Shown one piece after another: positions 13,287 to 17,661 of a stretch of DNA of 64,000 nt. Both the position numbers and the translations under genes were made by a program. The notes under the pieces were generated by a model. That model had not been told where the DNA came from. It ran no database searches and saw nothing but the letters and a program-made list of their open reading frames with translations. Numbering within the stretch: the stretch's first letter is position 1; the number at the start of each line of letters is the position of its first letter. This DNA is from Bacillota bacterium. Lineage in GTDB: Bacteria; Bacillota; Sulfobacillia; JAJZYS01; JAJYTV01. The stretch is taken from the NCBI GenBank assembly GCA_021847575.1, contig JAJZQO010000006.1:19755-83754 (forward strand). The letters run 5' to 3'.

Positions 13287-14291
13287 TCAGATCACGCGCT
13301 TGAACACTACGATGTGCCGCCCCACCAGTTCCATCTCGAGAGCGCGCGCGGTGCCGAGTGCAACCGATGACATCGGATCCTCCGCGCGCTGTGCAGGCAG
13401 CCCCGTTTCGCGGGAGATCAGCTCCGGCATGCCGTGCAGGAGGGATCCTCCCCCCGTAAGCCAGATACCGCGGTCCAGGATGTCAGCGAGCAGCTCCGGC
13501 GCCGTTTCCTCGAGCACCCGACGGACCGAGTCGACGATCTGGTGCGCTGGCTCCATCAGGATCGGCCGCACGTCCGCGGGCGTGAGGGTAATCGTGCGGG
13601 GCATCCCCGTGAGCAGGTCGCGCCCGCGGATGTCGATCGCGCCGACCCGCCCGTCGGGGTGAACCGAGCCCACCTCGATCTTGACCTCCTCGGCCGTGCG
13701 CTCGCCGATCGCAAGGCTGTAGGCGGACTTGAGCTCGTGCGAGATCGCCGCGTCCATGGTGTCGCCACCGACGCGCACCGAATCGCTTGCGGCTATGCCA
13801 CCGAGCGTCAGCACGGCAACATCGGTCGTGCCACCGCCGATGTCCACCACCATGTGGCCACTCGCCTTAGTAATATCCAAGCCGACGCCGAGCGCCGCGG
13901 CCAGTGGCTCCTCGATGAGCTCCACCTTGCCCGCCCCGGCGCTCTGCGCCGCCTCGCGCACCGCCCGCCGTTCGGCGCCCGTGGCGCCAGTCGGTATGCA
14001 CACCATGACGCGCGGCCGCGTCATGCTCCGCCCAGGTGTCACGCGCGCAATGAAATGGCGCAGCATGGCTTCGGTGATGTCGTAGTCGGCGATCACGCCG
14101 TCCCGAAGCGGCCGCGACGCCACGATGGATCCAGGTGTCCTGCCCAGCATCTGGCGAGCCTTGTCGCCGATGGCAACGAGCCGGCCCGAGTCCCGTTCCA
14201 CTGCCACCACAGACGGTTCCCGCAACACGATCCCTTTGCCGCGAACCGCCACGAGGACGTTGGCCGTCCCCAGATCGACCGCGATTTCCAT
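13287..14291 (-). CDS. mbl: MreB-family actin homologue (Mbl-type)
   Basis: This forms membrane-associated filaments that guide the lateral wall synthesis machinery. The start ATG 14291 lies 8 nt after GGAGG; an in-frame ATG five codons upstream is less likely. The 334-residue product has the actin-like phosphate-1 motif EIAVDLGTANVLVAVRGKGI, phosphate-2 VVDIGGGTTDVAVLTLGG and adenosine motif WLTGGGSLLHGMP. I call it mbl rather than mreB because it directly follows spoIIID, as in B. subtilis. The sequence alone does not separate the paralogues. Confidence 0.9.
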   Translation of the reverse strand: MEIAVDLGTANVLVAVRGKGIVLREPSVVAVERDSGRLVAIGDKARQMLGRTPGSIVASRPLRDGVIADYDITEAMLRHFIARVTPGRSMTRPRVMVCIPTGATGAERRAVREAAQSAGAGKVELIEEPLAAALGVGLDITKASGHMVVDIGGGTTDVAVLTLGGIAASDSVRVGGDTMDAAISHELKSAYSLAIGERTAEEVKIEVGSVHPDGRVGAIDIRGRDLLTGMPRTITLTPADVRPILMEPAHQIVDSVRRVLEETAPELLADILDRGIWLTGGGSLLHGMPELISRETGLPAQRAEDPMSSVALGTARALEMELVGRHIVVFKRVI

Positions 14292-14384
14292 GCAGGCGTC
14301 CTCCAACCATGCCGTCCGACATCATGGGCAATTCTCGCGGCAAGGTCGAAGGTCCTGCATTATTAATCCAACAAGGCCGTGAAT

Positions 14385-14615
14385 CTAGAGAGACCGTTCG
14401 AGGAACTTGCGCCGCGTCGCCTCGCCGCCACGAATATGGCGTTCGGCTTTGTTGTGCTCGAGCACGAGTTTGACTTCGCGAGCGAGCTGCGGGTTGATGC
14501 GCGGTAGCCGTTCGGTCACATCTTTGTGCACTGTGCTCTTGGAGACTCCGAAGCGGTGGGCGGTATCCCGTACCGTGTCCTTCGTCGCCAGAATGTAATC
14601 CGCGACCTCCATCGC
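14385..14615 (-). CDS. spoIIID: spoIIID, 3' part (interrupted gene)
   Basis: SpoIIID is a small DNA-binding regulator of mother-cell genes during sporulation. This part encodes MEVADYILATKDTVRDTAHR, then the helix-turn-helix FGVSKSTVHKDVTERLPRIN and the tail EHNKAERHIRGGEATRRKF, all diagnostic of the family. The frame is open upstream to GTG 14651, giving a possible 88-residue protein with N-terminus MTQTPVRLTIERA, but no SD precedes that GTG. The expected N-terminus (V/M-K-D-H-I-W-K-R) lies instead at 16796-16755. Joining the two parts in frame gives about 84 residues, the normal length. Translation of the 88-residue form by coupling to the overlapping recombinase gene remains possible. Confidence 0.9.
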   Translation of the reverse strand, partial: AMEVADYILATKDTVRDTAHRFGVSKSTVHKDVTERLPRINPQLAREVKLVLEHNKAERHIRGGEATRRKFLERSL

Positions 14616-14619
14616 GCGC

Positions 14620-15981
14620 TCAATGGTCAGACGCACGGGTGTTTGCGTCACCGGCGCCGCAGGCGCGGATCTCCGCCGCGTCGGGCCCGAACCAGACGCT
14701 TAGGCCGAGGTAGCGCAGGATGTCGCGGCGGCCACGGGCATCGGCCCGCTTAAGGTAGGCGAGCGCCGCCTCGGCGTCCTGTTTCCCGCCGCCGCGTTGA
14801 GGCTCGAGGTCAAGCGCCTTGAGGCGGCCGTCCACCTGACTGAGGGCAAGGGTGAGATCCTCGGCGGACAGACGGCCTGCGCCGCCCGCCTGAACAAGTC
14901 GCCGACGCCGCGACTCAAGCCGCCGACGATCCCTGGCGCGCGCGCGTTCGGCCCATGCCTCCACCTCGGGAGTCTCATGCCTGGCAGCGCTCTCGAGCTC
15001 CGACACCACGAGTGCCCAGATTGCGGCCTCCGTCTCCGCCGCGGGGTAGTACGGCGAGCTGCAGGGCGGTTTCGCCCGTTTGCCCGCACATGCATAGTAG
15101 GGGCGGCTGCCGCCGCTTCCTGTCACGGCGCGGCCGCATATCGCGCAGCGGGCCACTCCACTCAGCACGTAGACCCTGCCGTGGCCCGCAGGTCTTCTGC
15201 GGCGCGCCGCAAGCGCCCTTGCGGCCAGGTCGAACGCCTCCCGCGCCACAAGGGGCGGCATGGAGATGCTGCCCTGGCCCTTGAGCATGCTCATCCGGCC
15301 GAGATAGGTAGGGTTGCGCAAGATGCCGTAGACCGCGGACTGGGAGAACTCCCCTCCCCCTTTGGCATGAAGTCCCGCGGAGTTGAGCGCGTCCGCGATG
15401 GCCTGCGTTGACATCTGCGGCGCCATCGCGAACACGGCTCGCACGATGGCCGCCTCCGCCACATCCACGACGAATCCCTTTCGCTTGCGGTCGTAGGCGT
15501 AGCCGAGGATCTGCGTGCCTGTGACCGCCTTGCCCTCGCGCAGGCGCTGCTGCTTGCCCTGGCGCGTGCGCTCGCGGATCTTGTGCGCCTCGAACTCCGC
15601 GATAGCGCCGCGTATGGCGTAGAGCAGACGACCATCAGGGGTTGGCCGGCGTTCGAATTGGACGAAGTGCAACTCGACGCCAATGCTTTCTAGCTGGTCC
15701 GTCAGGATCAGCTGATGGCTCAAATTGCGTGCCAGGCGATCCGGGTCAAGGCAGACGACGGCTTGGATCTCGTTCGCCTTGGCGGCCGCCAGAAGCGACT
15801 GCAAACCCGGTCGGGTGATGTCCGCGCCCGAGATGCCCGCGTCGACAAAAGAGCGCATTTCCGTCGCGCCGAGCTGCTCGGCCAAGGCCTGGCAGCGCTG
15901 GATCTGTCCTTCCAGAGAGGTGCCGTGCTGGGCCTGCTCCTCCGTCGAGACGCGCGCGTAAAGCGCGACGCAGAGACTCAC
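14620..15981 (-). CDS. large serine recombinase (SpoIVCA/integrase type)
   Basis: This enzyme should perform site-specific recombination through a serine-DNA intermediate. The GTG start at 15981 overlaps the stop of the 30-residue ORF as GTGA. The 453-residue product has the resolvase domain with catalytic Ser in YARVSTEEQ and the arginine motif DRLARN. The recombinase domain lies at about 150-260 (GTQILGYAYDRKRKGFVVD, YGILRNPTYLGRM), then a zinc ribbon (CAICGRAV...YYACAGKRAKPPC) and a basic coiled-coil tail. The stop codon falls 4 nt before the first candidate core in the downstream spoIIID part, so the gene ends exactly at the element border. The enzyme is short compared with many phage integrases but complete. 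Confidence 0.93.
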   Translation of the reverse strand: MSLCVALYARVSTEEQAQHGTSLEGQIQRCQALAEQLGATEMRSFVDAGISGADITRPGLQSLLAAAKANEIQAVVCLDPDRLARNLSHQLILTDQLESIGVELHFVQFERRPTPDGRLLYAIRGAIAEFEAHKIRERTRQGKQQRLREGKAVTGTQILGYAYDRKRKGFVVDVAEAAIVRAVFAMAPQMSTQAIADALNSAGLHAKGGGEFSQSAVYGILRNPTYLGRMSMLKGQGSISMPPLVAREAFDLAARALAARRRRPAGHGRVYVLSGVARCAICGRAVTGSGGSRPYYACAGKRAKPPCSSPYYPAAETEAAIWALVVSELESAARHETPEVEAWAERARARDRRRLESRRRRLVQAGGAGRLSAEDLTLALSQVDGRLKALDLEPQRGGGKQDAEAALAYLKRADARGRRDILRYLGLSVWFGPDAAEIRACGAGDANTRASDH

Positions 15982-16070
15982 CTGAGCTTGCCCTGCCGGC
16001 GCAGTTGCTCGAGCAGGACCTGCCATGCCTTCAGCCATTCGTGCTGGGACACATCCACCCGGATCTCCAC
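15978..16070 (-). CDS. 30-residue ORF coupled to the serine recombinase
   Basis: GTG 16070 follows AGGGGG with a 7-8 nt spacing and opens a 30-codon frame ending in TGA at 15980-15978, which overlaps the recombinase GTG. The product is EIRVDVSQHEWLKAWQVLL plus EQLRRQGKLR after the initiator Met: an acidic start, an amphipathic helix with two Trp, and a basic end. I do not recognise it. Its position suggests it could set recombinase translation or act as a recombination directionality factor, but that is a guess. Confidence 0.6.
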   Translation of the reverse strand: MEIRVDVSQHEWLKAWQVLLEQLRRQGKLR

Positions 16071-16082
16071 GGCGCTTCCCCC

Positions 16083-16101
16083 TGTCCCGCGAACCGGGAC
16101 A
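16083..16101. repeat. hairpin before the 30-residue ORF
   Basis: TGTCCCG and CGGGACA form a perfect 7-bp stem around CGAAC. On the minus strand it ends immediately before the SD AGGGGG of the 30-residue ORF, so it could affect translation. A tiny frame (ATG TCC ACA TAG at 16115-16104) with a strong SD lies just upstream and might be a leader or chance. Confidence 0.5.
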
Positions 16102-16517
16102 ATCTATGTGGACATGTCCTCCTCCTTGCAGGATGGGCGCGGTACGATCGGACCCGCCTTGACGGGCCCATTCGGCACTATCGAGCCGAGTAGGCGCTTG
16201 CGCATCATGAATTCAGGCCGCGGACCATCCCCACGATTTGAGGATGGCGTGAACCGGGAGGCGTCCCGGTGGCTCTGCCGATCGTCTGCACCGTCGTTGT
16301 CTGATATCTCCTGTCCGACGACGGCACGCAGGCCCGGACACTCGGCCGTGACACCGGTTGACGCACCGCGCACCTCGGGCGTACAAGACCGCGGCATCAC
16401 CGCTTCGAGGGTATCGGACTCAAGCGTGGCTTGTGCGTACGCACCGGTCAGCCAAAGCTCCCCCTGGCGAACGGCATACGGCGCGTTTAGCCGCCTCGAT
16501 GGTACCGATTGCGCGGT
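16102..16517. other. non-coding part of the spoIIID intervening element
   Basis: No supportable gene. A long minus-strand frame crosses this stretch, but its composition looks like GC-driven openness, and it is only the read-through of the split spoIIID 5' end. The plus-strand frames are similarly unconvincing. Confidence 0.5.
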
Positions 16518-16742
16518 CGCCGGCCACTTGCCGGCGCTCCCCCGAAAAGGGGCGCGGGCGTTGCCCGCTATCCAGCCGGCACCGGGAACAGAGTTCCTGG
16601 TGCCGGCTTCGTCGTTCGGCAGCTGCTTCTTTCCCCGTGCGCAAGCGTCTGGACGGTCGTGGTCCCCTGCCAGGCAAAACACCGCTGCACGGGCGGAACC
16701 GCGAGACCAAGCACCGGCGCCCGCAACGGGCGCCGGTGCTTG
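16518..16742. repeat. cluster of five strong hairpins inside the intervening element
   Basis: Perfect or near-perfect inverted repeats occur at 16518-16536 (7 bp), 16535-16555 (CCCC/GGGG core), 16554-16568 (6 bp), 16574-16608 (16 bp with one G-U pair and a 3-nt loop) and 16708-16742 (15 bp perfect). The last ends 12 bp before the split spoIIID 5' part. They may be terminators that insulate the recombinase from spoIIQ-spoIIID transcription, recombinase-site structure, or a structured RNA. Confidence 0.7.
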
Positions 16743-16754
16743 CCTTGCAGATAA

Positions 16755-16796
16755 CCGGGCGGCGTCAAGCGCCCGCTTCCAGATGTGGTCCTTCAC
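16755..16796 (-). CDS. spoIIID: spoIIID, 5' part (interrupted gene)
   Basis: GTG 16796 follows AGGAAGGGG by 9 nt and encodes VKDHIWKRALDAAR, which matches the conserved SpoIIID N-terminus (M-x-D-Y-I-x-x-R-x-x-x-x-x-x). After about 14 codons the similarity stops and the frame runs into low-complexity GC-rich sequence. It begins 47 bp after the spoIIQ stop, the place where spoIIID is expected by synteny with B. subtilis. This part therefore supplies the ribosome-binding site and start that the 3' part lacks. Confidence 0.82.
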
Positions 16797-16842
16797 CGCA
16801 TCCGGCCCCTTCCTCGGCATCATTCGCGCAATACTTATGCGC

Positions 16843-17661
16843 TCAACTGTGCCGCGATGCGCCTGCCGTCGCGGCAGGTAACAGACTGGCGGGATCGATG
16901 GGCTGTCCCGCGCGCCTGATCGAAAAGCCGAGTTTTACGCCGCCGGCACCTGCCTGGGGCATCGTGCCGATCATCGTTCCCTGCCCGACTGTGCTTCCCA
17001 CCGCGAGGGACGTCGCAGCGAGACCCGTGTAGGTTGTGACGACGCTCTGGGGTGACGTCACGACGATCGTGAAGCCGCCGGATGCCTCGCGTTCCACCGC
17101 GGCGACGGCGCCTGGCAGCGCGGCGCGCACCGCCGCGCCAGGAGTCGCGGCGATCTCGAGACCCGTGTGGTAGAACCAGTAGCGACCGGTAGGATCAAAG
17201 ACCCAGCCATAGCCCATCGCCACGCGTCCCTGAAGCGGCCAAACGGCGGTTGCCGGCAGTGTGGGCGTGGCGGGGATGGTGGGTGCGTGGGCTGGCGATA
17301 CCGTGCCCGAGCCGGTGACGCCAGACTTGGCAGGGGCGGTTGGCCCGCTCGCGGAACCCGTTCCGTCGGGCGTGGGCTGCACCGCCATGGCCTGAGCCTC
17401 GGCGGCCCCCCGCTCAGCCGCCAGCATGCGCGTGCGCCCGAAGTCGCCGGAAAGCCGAACAGGTGTCTCGGGTGCCGCATTGCCGTTCGATAGGATGGTT
17501 ACGGCGGCGATGAGCACGACGAGCGCCCCCGCGCTCCAAAGCATTGGCTCTTGCCGCAGGGAGTCGCGAGCCCTGCGCGGAGCCAGGTAAACCCAGCGTC
17601 GGAAACCTGCTAGCCGACGATGCAAGTCCAAGGTCTGCGCCCGAAAAAGTGGGCGACACAC
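16843..17661 (-). CDS. spoIIQ: SpoIIQ-like degenerate LytM/M23 protein
   Basis: SpoIIQ is made in the forespore and bridges to SpoIIIAH across the two membranes during engulfment. The 272-residue product has one TM segment (MLWSAGALVVLIAAVTIL, about 40-57), a Pro/Thr/Ala-rich linker, and a C-terminal M23 fold (about 145-260). The first zinc motif is HTGLEIA, with Glu in place of the usual Asp. The usual HxH is replaced by KLGFS, so catalysis is unlikely, as in B. subtilis SpoIIQ. It lies directly before the 5' part of spoIIID. The start is uncertain: the GTG at 17661 overlaps its own candidate SD. Confidence 0.82.
   Translation of the reverse strand: MCRPLFRAQTLDLHRRLAGFRRWVYLAPRRARDSLRQEPMLWSAGALVVLIAAVTILSNGNAAPETPVRLSGDFGRTRMLAAERGAAEAQAMAVQPTPDGTGSASGPTAPAKSGVTGSGTVSPAHAPTIPATPTLPATAVWPLQGRVAMGYGWVFDPTGRYWFYHTGLEIAATPGAAVRAALPGAVAAVEREASGGFTIVVTSPQSVVTTYTGLAATSLAVGSTVGQGTMIGTMPQAGAGGVKLGFSIRRAGQPIDPASLLPAATAGASRHS

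Follow-up and report, generated by a model that had tools for sequence, protein, structure and literature searches.

An Element of About 2 kb with Its Own Serine Recombinase Divides spoIIID in a Family of Sulfobacillia and Is Likely Excised to Rebuild the Gene

Introduction

In the portions available of the publications cited here (PMC4191935, PMC5595907, PMC10747680, PMC5025042), the sporulation genes described as split are sigK, spoVFB, spoVR, spsM, gerE and yabG. The skin element in sigK (SpoIVCA in B. subtilis; skin-Cd, CD1231/CD1234, in C. difficile) divides the gene of a mother-cell regulator, carries its own serine recombinase and leaves the gene rejoined precisely and in frame. The present work concerns a stretch of 64,000 nucleotides from a Bacillota bacterium of the class Sulfobacillia (assembly GCA_021847575.1, contig JAJZQO010000006.1, positions 19,755 to 83,754), analysed as a whole and referred to below as the window. 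In this window spoIIID, also the gene of a mother-cell regulator, is divided by a 2,157-bp element with its own serine recombinase gene, and precise in-frame rejoining is deduced.

The target differs from that of skin in that SpoIIID stands upstream of sigK, and the element measures about 2 kb, whereas skin is a prophage-like island; moreover, the recombinases at the spoIIID site form a clade of their own and the element was found in all ten genomes of its family. In Bacillus cereus ATCC10987, gerE, a regulator gene of very small size, contains the non-phage element gin, which has a serine recombinase, a tiny recombination directionality factor (RDF; GirX, 42 aa, compared with a 30-aa candidate here) and an attachment site with an inverted repeat. 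According to the available part of its description it differs in its size of 28.6 kb, its 31 genes and three recombinases, and its reported occurrence in certain strains of B. cereus and B. toyonensis (PMC5595907). The elements vfbin (spoVFB), vrin (spoVR), SP-beta (spsM) and yin (yabG) likewise intervene in sporulation genes, but are phage-derived or prophage-like in the accessible portions of their descriptions and have other target genes (PMC4191935, PMC10747680). Large serine recombinases and integrases share the Resolvase, Recombinase and zinc-ribbon domains with the enzyme considered here, whose clade differs in being tied to one host codon in the 14 members compared. No description of a split spoIIID was found in the literature searched, a search that mostly did not reach subscription papers and preprints.

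Results and Discussion

The Two Parts of spoIIID and Their Joined Form

The gene order on the minus strand, which carries all the features given below, is a spoIIQ-like gene (17661–16843), a GTG start at 16796 opening ten codons that read VKDHIWKRAL (16767–16796), the recombinase gene, the remainder of spoIIID (14609–14385) and mreB/mbl. The frame from GTG 16796 begins VKDHIWKRALDAAR and is the SpoIIID N-terminus that a preliminary description of this DNA had recognised. The C-part, which runs from codon 11 to the stop and includes the helix-turn-helix (HTH), passed the cut-off of the TIGR02844 profile but matched model positions 6–79 only, and it was the single SpoIIID match in the source genome (99.4% complete). 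The spacing of 2,157 bp between the parts was confirmed, and they join in frame around the element to give a protein of 84 aa, in agreement with the length first proposed, which reads VKDHIWKRAL-E-VADYIL across the junction. This joined protein scored 140.2 bits and aligned to positions 1–79 of the profile, compared with 130.5 bits when the C-part was read from GTG and 125.6 bits when it was read from ATG.

No second spoIIID, whose presence would have spoken against a skin element, was found in the source genome by the profile search. With this result, and with intact relatives that are colinear with the joined form (see below), the earlier proposal that spoIIID is rebuilt by excision was supported. 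We consider it highly likely that the element's own recombinase excises it by recombining attL with attR at the dinucleotide GA of codon 11, which would rebuild an 84-residue SpoIIID in the mother cell.

The protein encoded between the two parts has Resolvase N-terminal, Recombinase and Zn_ribbon_recom domains with the catalytic serine and is a large serine recombinase, as the preliminary description had it; the sequence YARVS was invariant across 11 aligned recombinases. Its start, formerly placed at ATG 16038, is most likely GTG 15981 (14620–15981, 453 aa), since the stop of a conserved 30-aa open reading frame (ORF) overlaps this codon as GTGA. The small ORF and the recombinase gene were the only genes recognised in the element, and there was no prophage-like gene content. 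The element had been said to carry no cargo, a statement that calls for qualification; besides the recombinase gene it holds the 30-aa ORF and a conserved covarying region.

Distribution among Relatives

The order that contains the source is represented in the collection by 15 genomes, ten of which form its family, here called f1. The genomes are assemblies from environmental DNA, nine of the f1 genomes and G011 being metagenome-assembled genomes. A recombinase was present at the spoIIID site in 10/10 f1 genomes, and an intact spoIIID was seen in none of the ten. Seven contained both halves of the gene, on one contig (G000, G001, G002, G004, G007) or on two (G006, G008); in G003 and G005 the recombinase and the C-part were found on a contig that begins upstream of the C-part, and G009 had the N-part and the recombinase. 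The same arrangement thus recurs in genomes of the same genus and of the same family, and the split is not due to chance. In five f1 genomes the length of the element was 2,069–2,157 bp. The f1 sequences and G011 retain GAGGAAGGGG upstream of GTG 16796; the good Shine–Dalgarno (SD) sequence reported for this start is real, although its distance from the start is somewhat long.

Outside f1, a 1,747-bp element with the recombinase inverted divides spoIIID at the same codon in G011, a genome of a different family, so that the orientation of the recombinase gene is not fixed. G010, of a third family, has an intact spoIIID. In the survey of the class, 128 of 154 genomes gave a SpoIIID match. Those of f1 and G011 began at model position 4–8, and the only other full-strength matches beginning at 6–8 came from four genomes of family f44 (G084, G086, G088 and G089), in all of which the N-part was found elsewhere and a recombinase at the spoIIID site. 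The f44 elements are longer than those of f1, with measured lengths of 4,889 bp (G088) and 7,450 bp (G086). In the same family, the N-part of G087 runs into a stop codon following codon 13, with no C-part found in this genome, and G085 has an intact gene (VKDHIWKRVLEVSRYISRTKATVRD). The intact forms of G010, G085 and the protein-collection entry P0003 begin with (V/M)KDHIWKR and not with MTQTPVRLTIERA, and are colinear with the joined form; P0003 reads MKDHIWKRAIEVADYIMATRDTVRDTA across the position of the junction. This comparison with uninterrupted relatives, which the preliminary description had called for, agrees with rejoining. The survey of the phylum was restricted to the best matches, down to E 5.4e-39, and has no bearing on splits elsewhere.

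Some further observations were made on these assemblies. The f44 elements (L182, L203 and L183; G086, G088) carry cargo, which on reading the sequence includes MacAB-like ABC-transporter genes in G086. Contigs break inside or beside the element in five of the ten f1 assemblies (G003 C41, G005 C186, G006 C31/C84, G008 C160/C85 and G009 C66), which could come from strain mixture, hairpins or a mixture of excised and unexcised DNA. G081 (C7, C47, C64) gave odd, weak SpoIIID-like matches with no usual HTH motif, and no normal spoIIID was found in it, although one is present in G021, which shares its genus code.

Attachment Sites and Crossover

Fourteen left ends and fourteen right ends were aligned by codon. 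GA was present at codon 11 in all aligned ends, the search pattern for right ends having demanded it, and was common to both ends in the 12/12 genomes in which both were available. If an integrase acts at this GA, the arms inside the element, namely the P arm to the left of GA at the right end and the P′ arm to the right of GA at the left end, are expected to be inverted repeats of each other. In 12 genomes the mean match between them was 11.25 of 20 nt at GA and 3.25–6.75 in 24 other registers. A two-way shift scan gave 8.0–10.8 of 18 along the line on which the ends move in opposite directions, which keeps the same dyad axis; the centre of the crossover is therefore fixed by the dyad, and the remainder by the frame that the ends share.

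The crossover is best placed at the GA of codon 11, that is, at 16766–16765 in attL and 14609–14608 in attR, with the P′ arm at 16741–16764 and the P arm at 14610–14633, where it overlaps the end of the recombinase gene. The predicted joined site, attB, is …AAGCGGGCGCTT-GA-GGTCGCGGATTAC…, and that of the predicted circle, attP, …GAGCGCGCGATG-GA-CGCCGCCCGGTT…. The junction had first been placed at a shared GCG or CGC a few nucleotides away; not all pairs of ends have these letters in common (exceptions include G006 and the right ends of f44), and the dyad has its centre elsewhere.

Lineage of the Recombinase

The f1 and G011 recombinases were used as an alignment query, which returned 74 named loci, ten of f1/G011 and 64 others. 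A sigK-like sequence was found within 1.5 kb of 42 of the 64 outside loci, by which the spoIIID-site enzymes appear to be related to the skin recombinases but to have a different target. A tree of 63 recombinases, comprising 14 from the spoIIID site (nine of f1, G011 and four of f44, the G003 fragment being left out) and 49 of 78 others, was built by a quick method with SH-aLRT (approximate likelihood-ratio test) support. A branch with support 100 separated the 14 spoIIID-site enzymes from all others; among them the f1 enzymes were grouped with support 100, and G011 joined f44 with support 96. The clade is tied to one host codon in all 14 members compared. A scan of viral sequences gave no near relative, the top identity being 38% among the best 80 of 429 matches.

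Small ORF, Candidate Promoter and Structured Region

In f1 a conserved 30-aa ORF abuts or overlaps the start of the recombinase gene. In the window it reads VEIRVDVSQHEWLKAWQVLLEQLRRQGKLR (15978–16070), in G001 MEIRVDVSELEWRQAWRALIEQLRRQGKLR and in G008 MEIEWLASDDDLRAALHALADLLRLLPEPK; longer ORFs of similar look occupy the same place before the recombinase gene in G011 and f44. The product of about 30 aa is a candidate RDF. A motif CATA[CG]A[CT]T lies 36–38 nt ahead of the small ORF in 9/9 f1 elements (CATAGATT at 16101–16108 in the window), with 0.035 occurrences expected per 2.7 kb of shuffled bases. It resembles the −10 consensus of sigma-E and sigma-K, and it is a candidate mother-cell promoter. 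CATA is also present ahead of spoIIID in the 13 sequences compared.

The interval from the hairpins that follow attL to the 30-aa ORF contains some 470 nt of conserved sequence (16071–16540), a region that covaries as a structured RNA would. Its Jukes–Cantor distance was 0.03–0.20 within genus g1 and 0.39 between G007 and G008, compared with 0.17–1.36 and 1.25 for synonymous sites of the recombinase gene. A consensus structure of 95 pairs was obtained from nine sequences. Changes on both sides were counted in 20 pairs and 39 cells, compared with 9.4 and 14.5 in shuffles and 2–8 and 2–9 in versions of the structure slid along the alignment, a comparison that favours the structure over the slid versions, the structure itself having been derived from the same alignment. 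Further pair types (42, compared with 38.8 in shuffles, 38 of 500 being as high) were not clearly above expectation and single-sequence folding was unremarkable (z −1.59 and −0.30), so that the case for an RNA structure is made by the other covariation measures. A DNA search of 61 genomes found the region in eight f1 genomes (twice in G008 and as two pieces in G009, owing to contig breaks) and a further 39-nt match in G055 that is probably due to chance. The covariance model R1 (141 positions) gave one match in each of nine f1 genomes, which are the sequences it was built from, and none elsewhere among the 154 genomes; in the tenth, G003, the contig is cut before the region. For a 239-aa ORF of the window that covers the region, tblastn returned pieces in several frames of the relatives; as these frames are broken by stops, the matches are read as conservation at the DNA level. 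The region may act as an RNA that regulates the operon.

A structured region at the 5′ side of the insert, before its ORF, would also be in keeping with removal of the insert from the RNA and not from the DNA, as a ribozyme-like intron with a recombinase ORF. An Rfam scan of 14300–17000 gave no match to any family at E up to 1, on which a known RNA family for the element, group I and group II introns included, was rejected; the Rfam library contains the models of both. In addition, the R1 domain was not found in G011 or f44, where the hits were weak (L183, 16.6 bits, E 0.21; L192, 15.7 bits, E 0.31), yet spoIIID is split there at the same codon, and the ends of the insert have recombinase-type arms centred on one dinucleotide. 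Removal from the RNA is thus very improbable.

Selection on the Divided Gene and Its Possible Translation as a Shorter Protein

The f1 recombinase is under purifying selection: its dN/dS (ratio of nonsynonymous to synonymous divergence) was 0.13–0.20 within genera (seven pairs) and 0.26 between the window and G007, of another genus. Its dS was close to that of mreB in most pairs (0.25 and 0.23 for G002–G004; 1.25 and 1.22 for G007–G008), which together with the low dN/dS fits long vertical descent. The split is old. For the SpoIIID C-part dN/dS was 0.00–0.04 in seven pairs, mostly at dS near 1, and only 3 of the 30 nt of the N-part vary among eight f1 genomes (7 when the 14 split genomes that have a left end are compared).

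These values bear on the explanation that sporulation has been lost and the split spoIIID is decaying. Sporulation in the lineage is predicted from genes only, and three small genomes of the order are without both spoIIID and SpoIVA; SpoIVA is nevertheless present in 12/12 of the other genomes of the order, all of which have a spoIIID gene or a part of it, and the near absence of amino acid change in the C-part is not that of a decaying gene. We regard decay as extremely unlikely.

It is also conceivable that translation begins at the junction or within the last part of the recombinase gene, perhaps coupled to translation of that gene, to yield a shortened SpoIIID, and that the N-part is a relic. 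The C-part had been credited with a single in-frame start lacking an SD sequence; there are in fact three ahead of codon 11 in the window (ATG 14612, GTG 14636 and GTG 14651), none of them with a good SD sequence (best 4 of 6). An in-frame start of some kind precedes the C-part in eight of the nine f1 genomes that have this part, and codon 10 itself is ATG or GTG in 11/14 right ends (7/9 in f1, 4/4 in f44), a codon that could be part of the attachment site or the start of such a protein. At none of the junction starts in these genomes is the SD sequence good. The C-part passes the SpoIIID cut-off by itself, and gene callers report short proteins of this kind (P0001, P0002, P0004, P0011). Codon 10 is, on the other side, ACG in G006, GCG in G007 and CTG in G011; from its last stop to the HTH region the frame of G006 contains no ATG, GTG or TTG, and the closest in-frame start of G007 is a TTG 22 codons upstream without a good SD sequence. 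A shortened form would, moreover, leave the near invariance of the N-part and the conservation of the sequence upstream of it, as well as the selection on the recombinase and the dyad of the attachment sites, without explanation, and we hold it to be improbable.

Besides these starts, several results weigh against excision. Each of the 16 genomes with the N-part pattern has a single copy of it, in every case in a split or an intact gene, so that no excised form was seen among them, and the joined form of this lineage was absent from 30 sequences drawn from the 120 best protein hits. The family f1 is apparently uncultured, and its spore formation is predicted from genes alone. The recombinase dS between the window and G001 (1.36) is about twice that of mreB (0.71), and no −35 sequence of the proposed promoter is conserved among the nine f1 elements.

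Proposed Course of the Rearrangement

The excision, its confinement to the mother cell and the inheritance of the split gene by the spore are what we infer from the genomes compared. The split would keep spoIIID off in vegetative cells, and the hairpins after attL may block read-through. Activity of sigma-E in the mother cell would lead to synthesis of the recombinase and the small protein, the element of about 2.1 kb would be excised as a circle and spoIIID rebuilt under its own promoter, while the forespore would keep a split copy. SpoIIID is switched on by sigma-E, as stated in the available part of PMC517825, and excision would for this reason need to proceed under sigma-E only, ahead of the SpoIIID-dependent step by which skin is excised in C. 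difficile. The RDF gene of C. difficile skin is under sigma-E and SpoIIID in the portion available of PMC5025042; a need for SpoIIID of this kind is hardly possible for an element in spoIIID.

sigK in the Same Order

In G010, which has an intact spoIIID, sigK is split or cut with a serine recombinase adjoining (C128:2217–2543 and C259:4795–5145), at about the usual skin site. In G003 (C28:4931), G006 (C22:21537) and G008 (C49:4177) sigK is split or cut directly after LRLVAHIVK, with a weak recombinase match on the contig of the cut gene. Two excisions in one cascade are possible. A split of sigK in G000 was considered and rejected, the pieces ending at contig ends. G007 (C28, C9, C61, C73) and others contain many extra sigK-like fragments, mostly C-terminal, plus one near-complete copy.

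Neighbouring Genes and Hairpins

The spoIIQ-like gene (16843–17661) matches Peptidase_M23, an M23 peptidase, and is well under the cut-off of the SpoIIQ model; its stop is 46 nt, and not 47 as first counted, from GTG 16796. The same neighbour is present in G001, G002, G004, G007 and G010. The mreB/mbl gene downstream occupies 13287–14306. Direct reading gave a terminator-like hairpin just within the element (16709–16741) and a second at 16575–16607. Relatives have one or two hairpins in the stretch matching the first, mostly of different sequence; G002 and G004 have a common one.

Conclusions

SpoIIID acts before sigK, so that the rearrangement proposed here would gate the mother-cell cascade one step before skin. 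On a broader and tentative view, which we think rather less likely to be correct than not, it may be an obligatory first-step mother-cell rearrangement kept family-wide: a domesticated 2.1-kb switch, with the RNA of about 470 nt and the 30-aa partner timing a recombinase from a one-codon-specialised lineage spread across several families, and acting in some genomes before a second excision in sigK. The small elements (1,747 bp in G011 and 2,069–2,157 bp in five f1 genomes) offer biochemistry a clean pair of attachment sites, a recombinase and an RDF candidate. The structured region may add a layer of control, of a kind that we know from no other skin-type element. That all ten f1 genomes contain the element suggests that a switch of this type is able to settle permanently into a developmental programme, and need not be a passing prophage.

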